Source of the DNA: a bacterium
Lineage (GTDB): Bacteria > UBA9089 > JAHJRX01
Direction of reading: 5' to 3'
Length of the DNA: 46,526 bases
Assembly: GCA_018830565.1 (NCBI GenBank)
Contig: JAHJRX010000084.1
Location: 1 to 46,526, forward strand
In this document: piece by piece, positions 5,586 to 32,706 of the stretch
Position numbering within the stretch: position 1 is the first letter of the stretch
Layout: the number at the start of each line of letters is the position of its first letter
Translations under genes and position numbers: made by a program
Notes under the pieces: model-generated
What the model saw: only the letters and a program-made list of their open reading frames with translations
Database searches by the model: none
Told to the model about the DNA's origin: nothing

Positions 5586-6277
5586 AAGATATCTTTCTCC
5601 TTAAAACTGAATGAGTTATTATCGGCAACAATAATATGGTCTAACACATCTATTCCAACAATTTTGCCTGTCTCAAGTATTCTTTTGGTAATATCTATAT
5701 CGGCATCTGACGGCTCAGGATTACCAGAGGGATGATTATGGATTAAAATTATTGAAGACGACAGGGATTGGATTGCCTCCTTAAAAACCTCACGCGGATG
5801 AACAAGGTTTGTATCTAATGTGCCTGTAGAGATGGTGCTTATTTTAATAAGATTGCTTCTTGTATCTAAGCAGAGTATCAAAAACTGTTCCTTCTTTTTG
5901 CCCTTTAGCTGTTGTTTTACTAATTTGATAACATCTTGATGGCTTCTAACCGCTATCTGTTCTCCGTCATGCCCATCTTTCCTTTTTGCCAGCTCAAAGG
6001 ACGCTTTTAACTGGGAGGCTTTTGCTGGTCCTATTCCTTTTATGGCAGACAATTCCTCTATGGAAGCCTCTGATATATTTTTAATATTACCAAAGGCACT
6101 CAATAACCGCTGTGCCGTAACCATTACTGATTCGCCTTTTATCCCCCTGCCGAGTATCAAAGCCAGAATTTCCTGCGAAGAAAGTGCCTCTGCTCCGTGT
6201 TTTTGAAGCCGTTCCCTTGGCCTTTCAGATTTTGGCAGGTCATTGATGGTAAAGTTGCTATTTATTGTTTTAGACAT
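5582..6277 (-). CDS. radC: RadC-like JAMM/MPN domain protein
   Basis: The 231-residue protein has a RadC_N/helix-hairpin-helix segment (IKGIGPAKASQLKAS, ~79-93) and a JAB1/MPN metalloprotease-like core with the metal motif HNHPSGNPEPSDAD (180-193). RadC proteins are common in mobile and defence islands; their molecular activity is unsettled and the old DNA-repair assignment was withdrawn. It is the first gene of the RM operon and overlaps hsdM by 4 bp. A strong palindrome 33 bp upstream (6310-6338) is the likely operator for the operon. Confidence 0.88.
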   Translation of the reverse strand: MSKTINSNFTINDLPKSERPRERLQKHGAEALSSQEILALILGRGIKGESVMVTAQRLLSAFGNIKNISEASIEELSAIKGIGPAKASQLKASFELAKRKDGHDGEQIAVRSHQDVIKLVKQQLKGKKKEQFLILCLDTRSNLIKISTISTGTLDTNLVHPREVFKEAIQSLSSSIILIHNHPSGNPEPSDADIDITKRILETGKIVGIDVLDHIIVADNNSFSFKEKDIL

Positions 6278-11449: not shown

Positions 11450-11462
11450 CAATTTACCTCCA

Positions 11463-11512
11463 GTTCTTATCAGTCAGACAAGTCAGACTTGTCTGACTTG
11501 TCACTGTTACCT
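11463..11512. repeat. GTCAGACAAGTC palindromic repeat between aprA and qmoA
   Basis: The spacer carries an alternating run of GTCAGACAAGTC and GACTTGTCTGAC units that folds back on itself. Related copies occur at about 25775-25800, 26168-26200, 30772-30800 and 32636-32662, always in gaps or at gene edges of the sulfur clusters. Confidence 0.6.
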
Positions 11513-13914: not shown

Positions 13915-13930
13915 TTATTTTACCTCCTTT

Positions 13931-14220
13931 TAATTTCGAATGTTTAATGTTTAATGTCGAATTTCGAATGTTAATTCATTTCAATCCGCAATTCGCTTTT
14001 TAATTTCGAATGTTTAATGTTTAATGTCGAATGTTAATTCATTTCAATCCGCAATTCGCTTTTTAATTTCGAATGTTTAATGTTTAATGTCGAATTTCGA
14101 ATGTCGAATGTTAATTCATTTCAATCCGCAATTCGCTTTTTAATTTCGAATGTTTAATGTTTAATGTCGAATGTTAATTCATTTCAATCCGCAATTCGCA
14201 ATTCGCAATTCGCAATTCCC
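13931..14220. repeat. Tandem TTCGAATG-type repeat array between sat and aprB
   Basis: Four units begin at about 13931, 14001, 14064 and 14141 with lengths of roughly 60-80 bp. Each starts TAATTTCGAATGTTTAATG and ends TTTCAATCCGCAATTCGC; they differ by small internal duplications. The array fills the 361-bp gap between sat and aprB, where I see no gene. Related single copies occur at 20600-20680, 22043-22124, 22497-22610, 27706-27762 and 28500-28560. Units are contiguous, without unique spacers, so this is not a CRISPR. Confidence 0.8.
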
Positions 14221-14275
14221 TAAATCACCTCCCTTTAGTAGGAGTTTAGGGTGTTTTCTTCCACCCCAACCCTGA

Positions 14276-18697: not shown

Positions 18698-18758
18698 GAA
18701 TTAAAAATTGAGGAATTAAATGCAATCTGATAAATAACTTAACATAATAGTTGTATTT

Positions 18759-18830
18759 CCACCCCCTACCCCCGCCAGCGGGGGATAAGTTTGTACGAGG
18801 CTGTCCCCCGCTGGCGGGGGTAGGGGGTGG
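18759..18830. terminator. Bidirectional 27-bp perfect hairpin between convergent genes
   Basis: The arms 18759-18785 and 18804-18830 are perfectly complementary over 27 bases (core CCCCCGCCAGCGGGGG) with an 18-nt loop. The plus-strand membrane protein gene ends at 18697 and the minus-strand dsrL at 18908, so the hairpin can end transcription from both sides. The same arm sequence occurs inside dsrN (29640-29676), so it is also a mobile or dispersed repeat. Confidence 0.6.
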
Positions 18831-18907
18831 ATTTTCCCTACGAGGTATGTCAACTTAATTAATGGATTGCATATAAAAAATAATTCTCAATTTTTAATTC
18901 TTTTATC

Positions 18908-22024: not shown

Positions 22025-22042
22025 GTTAAACCTCCTTTTTAA

Positions 22043-22124
22043 ATTTCGAATTTCGAATGTTGAATGTTGAATGTTAAATTTAATCTTTTTTCAATTCGCA
22101 ATCCGCAATCCGCAATTCGCAATT
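22043..22124. repeat. 82-bp direct repeat, dsrB-proximal copy
   Basis: This copy runs from ATTTCGAATTTCGAATG to CCGCAATTCGCAATT and is almost identical to 22497-22578. The two copies bracket the broken four-helix-bundle gene between dsrA and dsrB. Confidence 0.85.
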
Positions 22125-22477
22125 ATTTATTAATTTTAGCCGTTTTACCTGTTGAAATAAAGATGGCTAAAAGTTCTTTGGCTTCATTCATAAGATTTTC
22201 AACCTTTAACAGGTTTATAATATTAGATTCAGTCAGTAGTTCCAGCCAATATATAGTTTCATCTACTTCTTGCGTGACAATTCCAAATCTTAGAGATAAA
22301 ATCTGCTTTTGATCTCGCCCGTGTAGCCTCACGATAATTTGCTCCCACAGATGTGCCTGACCGTAAGACTTGATTTCCAAGTATACTTGACTCTTTTGTG
22401 TTAGGTAATGTACCAACAAGTCTAATAATTCTTAAAGCAAATTCCTTCGTTCTTTTCCGAAGTTCCTCTTGATTCAT
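22123..22477 (-). pseudogene. Frameshifted four-helix-bundle protein (23S rRNA IVP family) inserted between dsrA and dsrB
   Basis: The 5' part (from ATG 22477) encodes KEFALRIIRLVGTLPNTKES and GTSVGANYREATRARSKADFI, the signature of the S23/IVP four-helix-bundle family. The 3' part in the next frame encodes QEVDETIYWLELL, the rest of that signature. Removing one base from the A-run at 22285-22287 joins them into ADFISKIGIVTQEVDETIYW, about 118 residues, the normal length. So the gene carries a one-base insertion (real or an assembly error). These proteins occur in rRNA intervening sequences and widely as stand-alone, repeat-associated genes; their role is unclear. It is out of place inside the dsr operon. 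Confidence 0.8.
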
Positions 22478-22496
22478 TCCTATTTCCTTCTTCTAC

Positions 22497-22610
22497 ATTT
22501 CGAATTTCGAATGTTGAATGTTGAATGTTAAATTAAATCTTTTTTCAATTCGCAATCCGCAATCCGCAATTCGCAATTTTCAATTCGCAATTCGCAATCC
22601 GCGATTATCC
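22497..22610. repeat. 82-bp direct repeat, dsrA-proximal copy, plus extra AATTCGC units
   Basis: Positions 22497-22578 repeat 22043-22124 almost exactly, and further CAATTCGCAAT steps continue to about 22607, ending at the dsrA stop codon. The direct repeats bracket the inserted gene. Confidence 0.85.
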
Positions 22611-25801: not shown

Positions 25802-26164
25802 TTAACGCCCCCGACCCTCTGAATAATAATGGCACTCAAAGCATTCCGGTTTCACACCAACATAGTTATGACATCTGTTACAAAATTCCTCACGATTAGC
25901 GTGGCAGGTGCGGCAGTTTGCCAGACTATGAGCAGTATTCCTTCTGCCACAACGAACTACCTTTTCCCGTTCTTTTTTAAGAATATCCATGTGATTTGCC
26001 CGCATGTAATTTGTCTCTTCCACGCATTTGCCTGGTTTATGAATTACCATGTCAGGTTTTGGCACTTTGTGACCTACTCCTCCACGCAAGACATTCAATA
26101 ACACCGGGGATGTAATTATTACTAAAAAGATTAGGACGCCGATGATAGCTAATAGCTTTTTCAC
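25802..26164 (-). CDS. dsrJ: DsrJ, triheme cytochrome c of DsrMKJOP
   Basis: The 120-residue protein has an N-terminal uncleaved signal/anchor (residues ~4-27) and three CXXCH heme c motifs at 84-88 (CRTCH), 95-99 (CNRCH) and 108-112 (CFECH). The region GKCVEETNYMRANHMDIL (46-63) is typical of DsrJ and contains Cys47, a candidate for the unusual His/Cys heme ligand. I start at GTG 26164, preceded by TGGAGGATAATT; the longer open frame to 26302 overlaps dsrK and is encoded by repeat DNA. Hemes would be attached by the ResB/CcsA system at 35-37 kb. Confidence 0.9.
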   Translation of the reverse strand: MKKLLAIIGVLIFLVIITSPVLLNVLRGGVGHKVPKPDMVIHKPGKCVEETNYMRANHMDILKKEREKVVRCGRRNTAHSLANCRTCHANREEFCNRCHNYVGVKPECFECHYYSEGRGR

Positions 26165-26195
26165 AATTATCCTCCAGTCAGACGAGTCCGACAAG

Positions 26196-27686
26196 TCAGA
26201 TCTGTATAGCCTTTGAGACAAGTTGATGGACACCGCCAACCATCTCCATTGGCAAGCCATATTTAGGGAATACGGCGGTGAACTGGGCTTTACAGACAGC
26301 ACAAATAAGGGCGAAGAAATTTACTCCGTGGCTATCCACCACTTGTTTTAAGGCTTGCATTCTGGGCATTACCCCGGCTACCCGCACTTGCATAAGTTCA
26401 TCTGTAAGTAAGCCGGCACCTGCCCCACAGCAAAATGTATTTTCTTTAATCGTTTCCTCCGCCATATCCACATATTTATTACAAACCGCTTTAATCAATG
26501 CCCTGGGGATTTCAAATTGACCACCTGCACAATTACCCATTCTGGATGCCCGGGCAACATTACAGGAATCATGGAATGTTACGCTGAACTCGTCATTTGC
26601 CGATTTATCAATCTTCAACACCCCACGATTTATCAAATCCATAGTGAACTCACAAATATGTTGTGGTCCCGGATATTTTGGGTCAAGGGTATCAAACGGA
26701 CCAACCAATGTATTCCAGAAGCTGTAGGCAACCCGCCAGGCATGACCACATTCACCTACAATAAGTCGTTTTACCTTTAAATTGCGGACTGCATCGGCAA
26801 TTCTTTGGGAAACCTTCTGCATAATACTATAATTTCCGATAAACATCCCAAAGTTACCAAACTCAGCCGCATGGGAACTTATTGTCCAACTTATTCCAGC
26901 CTGATGGAAGACCTTGGCGTAACCAATTAATGATTCTATATGAGGTGAGGCAAAGAAATCCGCAGAAGGGGTAACCAAAAGTATCTCTGCTCCCTCCTCA
27001 TCCATCGGCAGCCGAACATCTACACCTGTGGCTTCCTTTATCTCTTCCTCAACAAATTCAAGGGTATTCTTCAAAGCATTTGGCTGAAGCCCTAAATTAT
27101 TGCCTATGGTTAAAACCTTGCCTAAAACCTCTGTGGTATATTTCTGCCCGACACCTATGGCATCCATTATTTCCCTTGCCGCCATGCAAATCTCAGCGGT
27201 ATCTATACCATAAGGGCAATAAACAGAACATCTTCGGCATTGGGAACACTGATAAAAATAGACATACCATTCATTCAGCACATCCTCGGTCAAATCCTCA
27301 GCATTAGCCAATTTACCGAGCATCTTACCTGCCGGGGTAAAATATCTACGATAGACCTTCCTCAATAACTCCTGTCTGGCTACCGGCATATTCTTTGGGT
27401 CTTTGGTACCGAGGAAGAATTGGCATTTATCCGCACACGAACCACATCTGACGCAAGTGTCTAAATAGACCTGAAGGGACTTATACTTTTTTAGCAGTTC
27501 ACCCATTTTGGCAATAGCCTTTTGCCTCCAATCCTCCACCCGCTGAGTTGGAAAGCCAAGGATAGCCATATCCTTTTCCTTGCATGGATAGCTTCTGAAC
27601 TTATCGCCGGAAGCCGCCCCTTCTTTAATCCTGGGTATCTCGATTCTACCTGTAATTTCAGGAATTTCTATTTCTACCTTCGCCAT
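26196..27686 (-). CDS. dsrK: DsrK, HdrD-like iron-sulfur subunit of DsrMKJOP
   Basis: The 496-residue cytoplasmic subunit has two ferredoxin clusters (CVRCGSCADKCQFFLG ~77-92; CSQCRRCSVYCPYG ~145-158). It also has CCG-type motifs that bind the noncubane-type catalytic cluster of HdrB/HdrD (HDSCNVARASRMG, FCCGAGAG, ICAVCKAQF). DsrK is the proposed site where DsrC trisulfide or heterodisulfide is reduced. Its length is slightly below Desulfovibrio DsrK. It lies directly downstream of dsrM; the 76-bp spacer is a repeat-derived hairpin. Confidence 0.94.
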   Translation of the reverse strand: MAKVEIEIPEITGRIEIPRIKEGAASGDKFRSYPCKEKDMAILGFPTQRVEDWRQKAIAKMGELLKKYKSLQVYLDTCVRCGSCADKCQFFLGTKDPKNMPVARQELLRKVYRRYFTPAGKMLGKLANAEDLTEDVLNEWYVYFYQCSQCRRCSVYCPYGIDTAEICMAAREIMDAIGVGQKYTTEVLGKVLTIGNNLGLQPNALKNTLEFVEEEIKEATGVDVRLPMDEEGAEILLVTPSADFFASPHIESLIGYAKVFHQAGISWTISSHAAEFGNFGMFIGNYSIMQKVSQRIADAVRNLKVKRLIVGECGHAWRVAYSFWNTLVGPFDTLDPKYPGPQHICEFTMDLINRGVLKIDKSANDEFSVTFHDSCNVARASRMGNCAGGQFEIPRALIKAVCNKYVDMAEETIKENTFCCGAGAGLLTDELMQVRVAGVMPRMQALKQVVDSHGVNFFALICAVCKAQFTAVFPKYGLPMEMVGGVHQLVSKAIQI

Positions 27687-28986: not shown

Positions 28987-30399
28987 TTAATAAACCTTCC
29001 TCTTTTTCACACACCTTTGAATAAAGGCAACAAATTGGGATGCCCACTGAGGAACACCAACACTGTGTAAATGGGTATAGCCGGCGATAACATTTTTATA
29101 GATAATTCCATCGTGAGAACCATCTATACCTTTGCCACGAATAACCCTGAAAGCAAAATCCAACCCCTGTGGATTAATAATTTGTGAATAGTGGAATTCA
29201 TGTCCGGGGATTTCTCCATCAAAGCAAAACCAGTTAGACTTACCTGTTTGTTCCAAAGTTACATAACCATGTCCTTGTGGTTTTTCATAGACCTTGACAT
29301 CACAGGGTAGAGCACCAACCATCTCTTTAGTTGTCCCGTTGTAGGATATACTTTTGGCTAAATACATCAAACCACCGCATTCAGCATAAACAGGCATACC
29401 TTGTTCTATTGCGGTTTGAATCTCCTGCCGCAGAATTCTATTTTCTGACAGGGTTTCTATAAACATCTCCGGGAAACCACCGCCAAAGTATAAACCGTCC
29501 ACCTCCGGTAACCGACTATCCGTCAAGGTATTAAACGGTATAAGTTCTGCTCCTGCCTGCTGAAGTGCAACTAAGTTCTCAGGATAGTAAAAGGTAAATG
29601 CCGTGTCCCTGGCTATTCCAAGTCGCACGGTTGGGGAAGAGAAATATCCCCCGCTGGCGGGGGTTAGGGGGTGGATTCCGTTCTGTTCTAATTCAGGCAA
29701 AAAAGGGGAGGATTGCCTCACTGCTGATGCAGATAGTTTCAGCACCGCATCTAAATCTACATATCTTTTCACGGCATTAGCGAGAGATTCAATTATCGGC
29801 ATTAACCGGAAATCCTCTTTTAGGGGCATTAATCCTAAATGCCGTTCTTTAATCTCAATCTCATCTAATTTTGGTAAAACACCCAATACCTCTACATCGC
29901 AGTATTGAGTAATAGCGGATTTTAGCTTTTCTTCATGCCGTGTGCCGGCAACCTTATTTAATATAATGCCTCTGATTAAATTATCCGGCTCAAATTGTTG
30001 ATAACCAAGCAAAAGGGGTGCTATCCCTCGTGTCATTCGACTTGCATCTATAACTAAGATAGCAGGTGCTTTCAATAGTTTAGATAGATATGAGGTGCTG
30101 TCCTTGCCTTCCCTGTCCAAGCCATCATAGAAGCCCATATTTCCTTCTATAACGCTCAAATCAGCATCCTGACCGGCTAATTGAAAAACCTCAATGAGTT
30201 TTTCCTCACCCATCATAAAGAAATCTAAATTATGGCATTGGGTCTTGGCAGCCGCAGTCAACCACATCGGGTCGATATAATCAGGCCCTTTTTTAAAGGG
30301 CGCCACCTTCAAACCTTGTTCTTTTAGTGCGGCACATAACCCTATGGAGATGGTTGTCTTACCCGAACTTCTCCCTGGGGCAGAGATAATGATTCTCAT
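28987..30399 (-). CDS. dsrN: DsrN, cobyrinate a,c-diamide synthase-like siroheme amidase
   Basis: The 470-residue protein has the CbiA/CobB layout: an N-terminal P-loop ATP-binding domain (APGRSSGKTTISIGLCAAL) and a C-terminal class I glutamine amidotransferase domain with the catalytic Cys in PVYAECGGLMYLA and a His in GHEFHYSQI. In dsr clusters this protein is DsrN, which amidates siroheme to siroamide for DsrAB. A true cobalamin role is the alternative, but no other cob genes are nearby. Residues ~241-253 (HPLTPASGGY) are encoded by a palindromic repeat arm inserted in frame in the linker between the domains. It abuts the CGGC gene with no gap. Confidence 0.88.
   Translation of the reverse strand: MRIIISAPGRSSGKTTISIGLCAALKEQGLKVAPFKKGPDYIDPMWLTAAAKTQCHNLDFFMMGEEKLIEVFQLAGQDADLSVIEGNMGFYDGLDREGKDSTSYLSKLLKAPAILVIDASRMTRGIAPLLLGYQQFEPDNLIRGIILNKVAGTRHEEKLKSAITQYCDVEVLGVLPKLDEIEIKERHLGLMPLKEDFRLMPIIESLANAVKRYVDLDAVLKLSASAVRQSSPFLPELEQNGIHPLTPASGGYFSSPTVRLGIARDTAFTFYYPENLVALQQAGAELIPFNTLTDSRLPEVDGLYFGGGFPEMFIETLSENRILRQEIQTAIEQGMPVYAECGGLMYLAKSISYNGTTKEMVGALPCDVKVYEKPQGHGYVTLEQTGKSNWFCFDGEIPGHEFHYSQIINPQGLDFAFRVIRGKGIDGSHDGIIYKNVIAGYTHLHSVGVPQWASQFVAFIQRCVKKRKVY
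29640..29676. repeat. Palindromic repeat arm inserted in frame inside dsrN
   Basis: TATCCCCCGCTGGCGGGGG and the following TTAGGGGGTGGATT match one arm of the perfect hairpin at 18804-18835, differing by one extra T. It lies inside dsrN without breaking the frame and adds about 12 residues to an interdomain linker. Confidence 0.8.
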
Positions 30400-30744: not shown

Positions 30745-30777
30745 AAATCTACCTCCTTTTAAATCTTTCTGACCAGT

Positions 30778-30846
30778 CAGACAAGTCAAACTTGTCAGAA
30801 AGACACTGTATTCATTTTTACGGCTAATTTTGCCAGGTCATAGACC
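30778..30846. repeat. 69-bp duplicated 3' end, copy A
   Basis: This stretch matches 32638-32706 with only about five differences. It contains a GACAAGTC-type palindrome and encodes the last ~14 residues (DLAKLAVKMNTVSF) of the MvhD-like protein. Confidence 0.85.
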
Positions 30847-32308: not shown

Positions 32309-32644
32309 AATTATCTCGCATAATTTACTCCTAAAAGCCTTCAGCCTGCCAATGGCATGAGAGGCAGCAGCATTAGCTTGAGATATGGACTCATGGATTG
32401 ATTTTGGGCAGTGAGCCAGACCACACAAAAAGATCCCATCTGTGGCAAAGTCAACCGGTCGCAGCTTAGCATGTGCCTCTAAGAAAAAGCCGTCTTGATT
32501 CAAGGGTACCTTCAACTGTTTGGCCAGAACCTTATTATCAGATTGCGGCACAATAGCCGGAGCAAGAACGATCATATCCGCAGCTAACACCACATTCACA
32601 CCAAGTATCGGGTCAAATACCTCTACCTTTAATTTGTCTGACAA
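32288..32644 (-). pseudogene. Remnant of an HdrA-like flavoprotein
   Basis: About 100 residues match the central C-terminal part of HdrA: VEVFDPILGVNVVLAADMIV, VPLNQDGFFLEAHAKLRPVD, FATDGIFLCGLAHCPKSIHE and SISQANAAASHAIGRL. The N-terminal FAD-binding half and the C-terminal ferredoxin clusters are missing. The 5' junction lies in a GACAAGTC-type repeat that supplies a TTG start, and the 3' end runs into the MITE-like element. A normal HdrA is over 600 residues. Together with the MvhD-like gene it suggests a former HdrA-MvhD electron-transfer pair in this operon, now decayed. Confidence 0.75.
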
Positions 32645-32706
32645 GTCAGACTTGTCAGAAAGACACTGTATTCATTCGGACAGCTAATTTTGCCAGGTCA
32701 TAGACC
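32638..32706. repeat. 69-bp duplicated 3' end, copy B
   Basis: Near-identical to 30778-30846. It encodes the final residues (DLAKLAVRMNTVSF) of the DsrE-like protein and the flanking GACAAGTC repeat. The tail fits DsrE-like proteins, so this is probably the source copy. Confidence 0.85.

Follow-up and report, generated by a model that had tools for sequence, protein, structure and literature searches.

The dsrN gene of this bacterium carries, in frame, a palindromic unit of 31 nucleotides that we interpret, with a probability of roughly 0.6, as a solo, non-autonomous copy of a palindromic mobile element associated with DUF559 endonuclease genes. The unit lies at 29645-29675 of the window, the 46,526-nucleotide contig analyzed here, and belongs to a widespread class of palindromes that flank DUF559 genes.

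The palindromic unit within dsrN

The gene (28987-30399, minus strand) codes for a CobB/CbiA-type a,c-diamide synthase of 470 residues (TIGR00379, 461 bits, with matches to PF01656 and PF07685), and dsrN is a fair name for it because it is part of a dsrP-O-J-K-M-C-N cluster, in which its neighbors code for DsrO, DsrK, DsrJ, DsrM and DsrC. The nearest named relative of the product is from a Candidatus Desantisbacteria MAG (~63%), an affiliation that we take as a hint. The unit (TATCCCCCGCTGGCGGGGGTTAGGGGGTGGA, plus strand) consists of the hairpin CCCCCGC-TG-GCGGGGG, with its core at 29648-29663 (plus strand), followed by the tail GTTAGGGGGTGGA; the G-rich tail at 29664-29675 (plus strand; TTAGGGGGTGGA) is kept among the copies. 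The unit spans codons ~242-252 and codes, on the minus strand, for the HPLTPASGGY segment of DsrN with the reading frame intact, as the first-pass annotation had proposed in describing a palindromic arm inserted in frame in dsrN. An alignment with homologues agrees with the idea of a unique insert: HPLTPASGGY is seen in the DsrN of the window and in none of the 80 homologues aligned, and the two closest of these, L083 (84%) and L084 (81%), are without the unit and represent the empty site. The insert had been estimated at about 12 residues; the insertion stands, but the net gain at the unit is 8 residues (24 nt), about 31 nt having been inserted and a few host bases replaced. A separate, 15-nt in-frame indel coding for VRQSS (29709-29723, minus strand), outside the unit and also missing in the two closest homologues, adds 5 residues, for a total of +13 relative to these proteins. 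No flanking duplication was found around the dsrN unit.

The PDB relatives of DsrN are too distant for placing the linker. In an AlphaFold2 model of the protein (36-sequence alignment; mean pLDDT of 90.6), residues 240-251 are the sole segment with a pLDDT below 50; this segment, predicted to be disordered, coincides with the peptide encoded by the unit, follows the final helix of the ATPase domain and precedes the initial strand of the amidotransferase domain, which supports the earlier assignment of the insert to the linker between the two domains. The model thus suggests that the insert forms a disordered, proline/glycine-rich linker segment, which probably has little effect on the DsrN enzyme.

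The linker of a Chloroflexi MAG (UBA6077) shows that the dsrN case is not a one-off: at 5690-5800 of its locus (L139), the DsrN linker contains, in frame, a pair of inverted palindromic units that resemble the dsrN unit in architecture but not in sequence (PTPGPSPTGRGEASPPSLAGKGAGGLGPS), and, as read from the sequences, this appears to be an independent insertion at the same linker. A Dehalococcoidia MAG (L142, 5680-5790) has yet another palindrome-like, in-frame peptide in its DsrN linker (GLLRFARNDSVEVVIARSAATKQSS), a third sequence type at this place.

A dispersed family of units

The 1.70-Mb genome was searched using the reversed core sequence as a control. The 16-nt core (CCCCCGCTGGCGGGGG), a 7-bp palindrome with a TG loop, has 50 exact copies and its reversed control none; the 28-mer formed by core and tail is found exactly at 24 places, and at 31 when up to three mismatches are allowed. 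The dsrN copy is identical over 28/28 positions to the commonest form in the genome. The length of the linker does vary among the 80 aligned DsrN homologues, as would also be seen if the segment had arisen by chance similarity or by local expansion of a G/C-rich linker, with no inserted element; however, the identity to a repeat of 24 copies and the 50 exact cores, against zero control matches, exclude a chance match, and we consider this explanation refuted.

Two layouts of the unit are found. The first is exemplified at 18717-18877 by a MITE-like element with ends TGCAATCTGATAAAT...ATGGATTGCATATA, in which a left unit (18758-18785, minus strand) and a right unit (18804-18831, plus strand) are placed head to head, with their tails outward; the genome has ~21 related loci with pairs in this arrangement and with these ends, of which this is one. 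The first-pass annotation had seen in dsrN one arm of this hairpin. The dsrN copy is indeed a member of the same family, but it was not copied from these two arms, because both have a GTAG variant whose spacer is one base shorter. In the second layout, units are solo or border the DUF559 gene, and MITE ends are absent (dsrN, C20:12918, C52:15792, C76:1668 and a cluster at C79:38997-39726). The terminal inverted repeats typical of MITEs are therefore a property of the paired form, as at 18717-18877, and not of the solo unit in dsrN.

The majority of the units of the genome reside in the MITE-like element, whose ends are unrelated to the unit and whose spread may depend on another transposase. 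It could thus be argued that the solo units, including that of dsrN, derive from the TGCAATC...GATTGCA element as relics or by gene conversion, and that a nuclease of their own is needless. The solo units within genes, however, show no trace of the MITE ends, and four more genomes of the phylum have the 28-mer, where it seems to occur solo or as a DUF559 border; we regard a MITE origin of the solos as improbable. In these four genomes the unit, often with 28/28 identity, has 18 (G013), 8 (G018), 1 (G015) and 1 (G002) copies, and it was detected in 0 of the 22 genomes searched outside the phylum. Carriage of the unit by viruses was also considered and rejected, since the exact 28-mer has no match among 2.9 million viral contigs.

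In-frame copies in other genes of the phylum

Copies of the unit are also found in frame in hypF, in smc, in hdrB and in a gene for an N-acetylmuramoyl-L-alanine amidase, in answer to the suggestion that other genes be searched for the same arm. HypF has a clean insert of 21 residues at the unit relative to PDB 3VTH and 4G9I, and in the amidase the unit falls between the two domains of the protein. Two units are present, in frame, in the SMC hinge region, where the net insertion is small in an alignment to 5H69. In the HdrB-like protein, the unit is at the identical place in two species, and the alignment to 8RVV is interrupted there. The hypF unit is flanked by a 28-bp direct duplication with 5 mismatches, and the hdrB unit by a 19-bp direct duplication with 1 mismatch in L185; the match flanking the amidase unit lies within native repeats. 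A DUF1016/YhcG gene (L203, 1980-2060) is cut short by a unit with a ~21-bp inverted target duplication, read by eye, which suggests fold-back or template switching.

Four different reading frames of the unit are used in genes. The GTTAG form is open in 4/6 frames, the remaining two requiring a GTAAG variant. Counting copies as genic or intergenic from the stretches around the matches, all five GTAAG copies found (5/5, representing four independent events) are genic, and the variant is seen in none of the ~55 other copies (Fisher p = 1e-5). The exclusively genic occurrence of GTAAG fits selection for an open frame; since the amidase copy had no need of GTAAG, a separate sub-lineage is also possible.

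Units border genes for a DUF559 endonuclease

A single DUF559 gene is present in the genome (C79:39066-39386; PF04480, a Vsr-like PD-(D/E)XK endonuclease). It has the unit found in the window on either side, in inverted orientation (C79:38997-39446). One unit ends at the start codon, two inverted units follow the gene, and the reading frame extends into the downstream unit. The same layout of units and gene is found in G015; in G002, G013 and G018, shortened relics of DUF559 are located next to units or between them. Other genomes have DUF559 genes flanked by inverted hairpin-plus-G-tail units of a different sequence. We scored inverted repeats between the 140-bp flanks of DUF559 loci, taking a score of at least 14 as strong and 909 control ORFs as the null, which replaced a cross-pair null because shared G-runs contaminated the cross pairs. 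Strong flanking inverted repeats are present at 33/61 DUF559 loci from many phyla, as compared to 0/909 control ORFs: 19/30 in a first set (p = 1e-19) and 14/31 in a second set that takes in the named plasmids of Deinococcus proteolyticus, D. psychrotolerans, Pseudanabaena and Qipengyuania. The other 28/61 loci are without a strong inverted repeat, and some of these are domains fused into large proteins, or fragments. The tails point inward at most DUF559 loci and outward at some (for example, in Deinococcus).

The unit that borders DUF559 is also the one dispersed in the same genome. The unit bordering DUF559 in G134 has 99 copies at home and none in seven other genomes; that of G011 has 23 copies at home and none elsewhere; and that of G017 has 14 copies at home and 22 in G011, of the same phylum, with none in six others. 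The unit of G038, with 3 copies at home and none elsewhere, is a weak case. A border unit dispersed at home and absent from unrelated genomes is thus seen in the genome of the window, in G134, in G011 and in G017, and weakly in G038. In Sphingomonas parapaucimobilis a DUF559 gene separates sufB from sufC (L278, 692-1102), and in Deinococcus psychrotolerans another separates paaD from paaZ (L281, 665-1018); a location inside conserved operons is as expected of an inserted element.

As the main alternative, DUF559 could be a homing-type endonuclease and a parasite of pre-existing palindromes that are moved by something else, its gene having been inserted between them. Homology links the DUF559 protein to PDB 3HRL and, weakly, to 3R3P, which was named a mobile intron protein on deposition, and the units far outnumber the DUF559 genes in the genome; both observations would suit a parasite. 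In the genome studied here, however, the tails point outward in the MITE pairs but inward in the DUF559 cassette. This opposite orientation argues that the gene was not simply dropped between the arms of a MITE pair, although it weighs less than an exclusion. In each genome tested, the border units agree with the repeat dispersed there, a match that a parasite could also produce. Overall, we view the homing alternative as unlikely, but less so than the other rivals.

It is also conceivable that a Y1 (RAYT) transposase moves the units, which would then be classical REP sequences, with the DUF559 gene as a bystander. Three Y1_Tnp genes are present in the genome, and the paired, inverted units resemble REPINs (PMC3116915). 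Yet none of the three Y1 loci (0/3) has the unit in the flanks that were fetched, even at 4 mismatches, and in none (0/3) do inverted repeats between the flanks clearly exceed the background; the single DUF559 gene, by contrast, has units on both sides. A RAYT origin of the unit was rejected on the absence of the unit near any of the three genes, and the REP scenario as a whole seems to us about as improbable as a MITE origin of the solos.

Comparison with known palindromic systems

Rickettsia palindromic elements (RPEs), of ~150 bp and located in frame inside genes, resemble the unit in that they are dispersed palindromes which enter unrelated metabolic genes in frame and leave them intact (PMC10969869). 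This likeness had been raised by the first-pass annotation. It is real in effect, because the unit is also in frame inside other protein-coding genes of the phylum (hypF, the amidase gene, smc and hdrB, in addition to dsrN), but it does not extend to membership or relation: RPEs are ~150 bp long with one conserved peptide per family, whereas the unit is ~31 bp long, is read in four frames and borders a DUF559 gene. To our knowledge, no enzyme has been assigned to RPEs.

A parallel in organization is offered by REP/REPIN-RAYT, in which short, genome-specific palindromes, solo or paired, also flank an enzyme gene, so that the pairing of a palindrome with an enzyme is itself known (PMC3116915). 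Here, too, short palindromes are dispersed and frequently form inverted doublets (50 cores, ~21 paired loci). The enzyme of REP/REPIN is a Y1/HUH transposase, whereas the unit is near none of the three Y1_Tnp genes and the enzyme linked to it is a Vsr-like PD-(D/E)XK nuclease; moreover, the units also enter coding genes. Elements of the IS200/IS605 type share the arrangement of a small enzyme gene bordered by hairpins, but the DUF559 element is without a HUH enzyme and its borders are inverted copies of one unit, many of which are dispersed alone. The GC clusters of yeast mitochondria are short G/C-rich palindromes that include an in-frame, optional insert in var1; they differ in belonging to an organelle, and we know of no DUF559-type gene that borders them. 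Finally, Vsr-like homing endonucleases (PDB 3R3P) and DUF559 share a homologous nuclease fold and a tie to mobile DNA, to an intron in the former and to bordering palindromes in the latter.

The in-frame insertion of palindromes in Rickettsia genes (PMC10969869) and the palindrome-enzyme pairing of REP/RAYT (PMC3116915) are therefore already known. No description of DUF559 paired with palindromic repeats was found in the literature searched, which left out most subscription journals, and the novelty of this pairing is provisional.

A model for the spread of the unit

We propose that the minimal mobile element would consist of a unit, a DUF559 endonuclease gene and an inverted unit, the unit serving as a border repeat of ~31 bp formed by a perfect 7-bp hairpin and a directional, G-rich tail. 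The borders could also spread alone, and solo units would then be non-autonomous derivatives. The Vsr-like nuclease, the putative mobilizer, may recognize the hairpin and/or tail and nick or cut the target, into which the unit would be copied by repair synthesis with template switching, a reaction that might sometimes duplicate 19-28 bp of the target. Copies in coding DNA would survive if placed in a loop or linker and in an open frame; the dsrN copy would have landed in the interdomain linker.

Tentatively, and at slightly less than even odds, this model may be extended: DUF559 (Vsr-like) proteins could be the mobilizing enzymes of a large, unrecognized class of bacterial palindromic repeats, a nuclease-based counterpart of REP/RAYT whose members enter genes in frame and add linker peptides to core enzymes. 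Our observations suggest that the unit is an overlooked kind of tiny mobile DNA. Many bacterial genomes contain short G/C-rich palindromes of unknown origin, some of which are read as peptides such as HPLTPASGG or TPGPSPTGRG; if such palindromes had a fixed partner gene, a candidate enzyme would be at hand and their spread could be tested directly. If correct, DUF559, annotated as a family of unknown function, would gain a role, and the in-frame insertion of palindromes into core genes would not be peculiar to Rickettsia.

Other repeats in the window

A second dispersed palindromic repeat (GTCAGACAAGTCAGACTTGTCAGA) occurs near gene boundaries at 11455-11496, 26159-26209, 30758-30799 and 32618-32659. 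It is overlapped by a 71-nt direct repeat, 92% identical between its copies at 30776-30846 and 32636-32706, which are 1860 nt apart. Intergenic, AT-rich, tandem-like arrays of TTTCGAATG / AATTCGCAATCCGC units are found at 13927-14224, 22037-22131 and 22491-22599.
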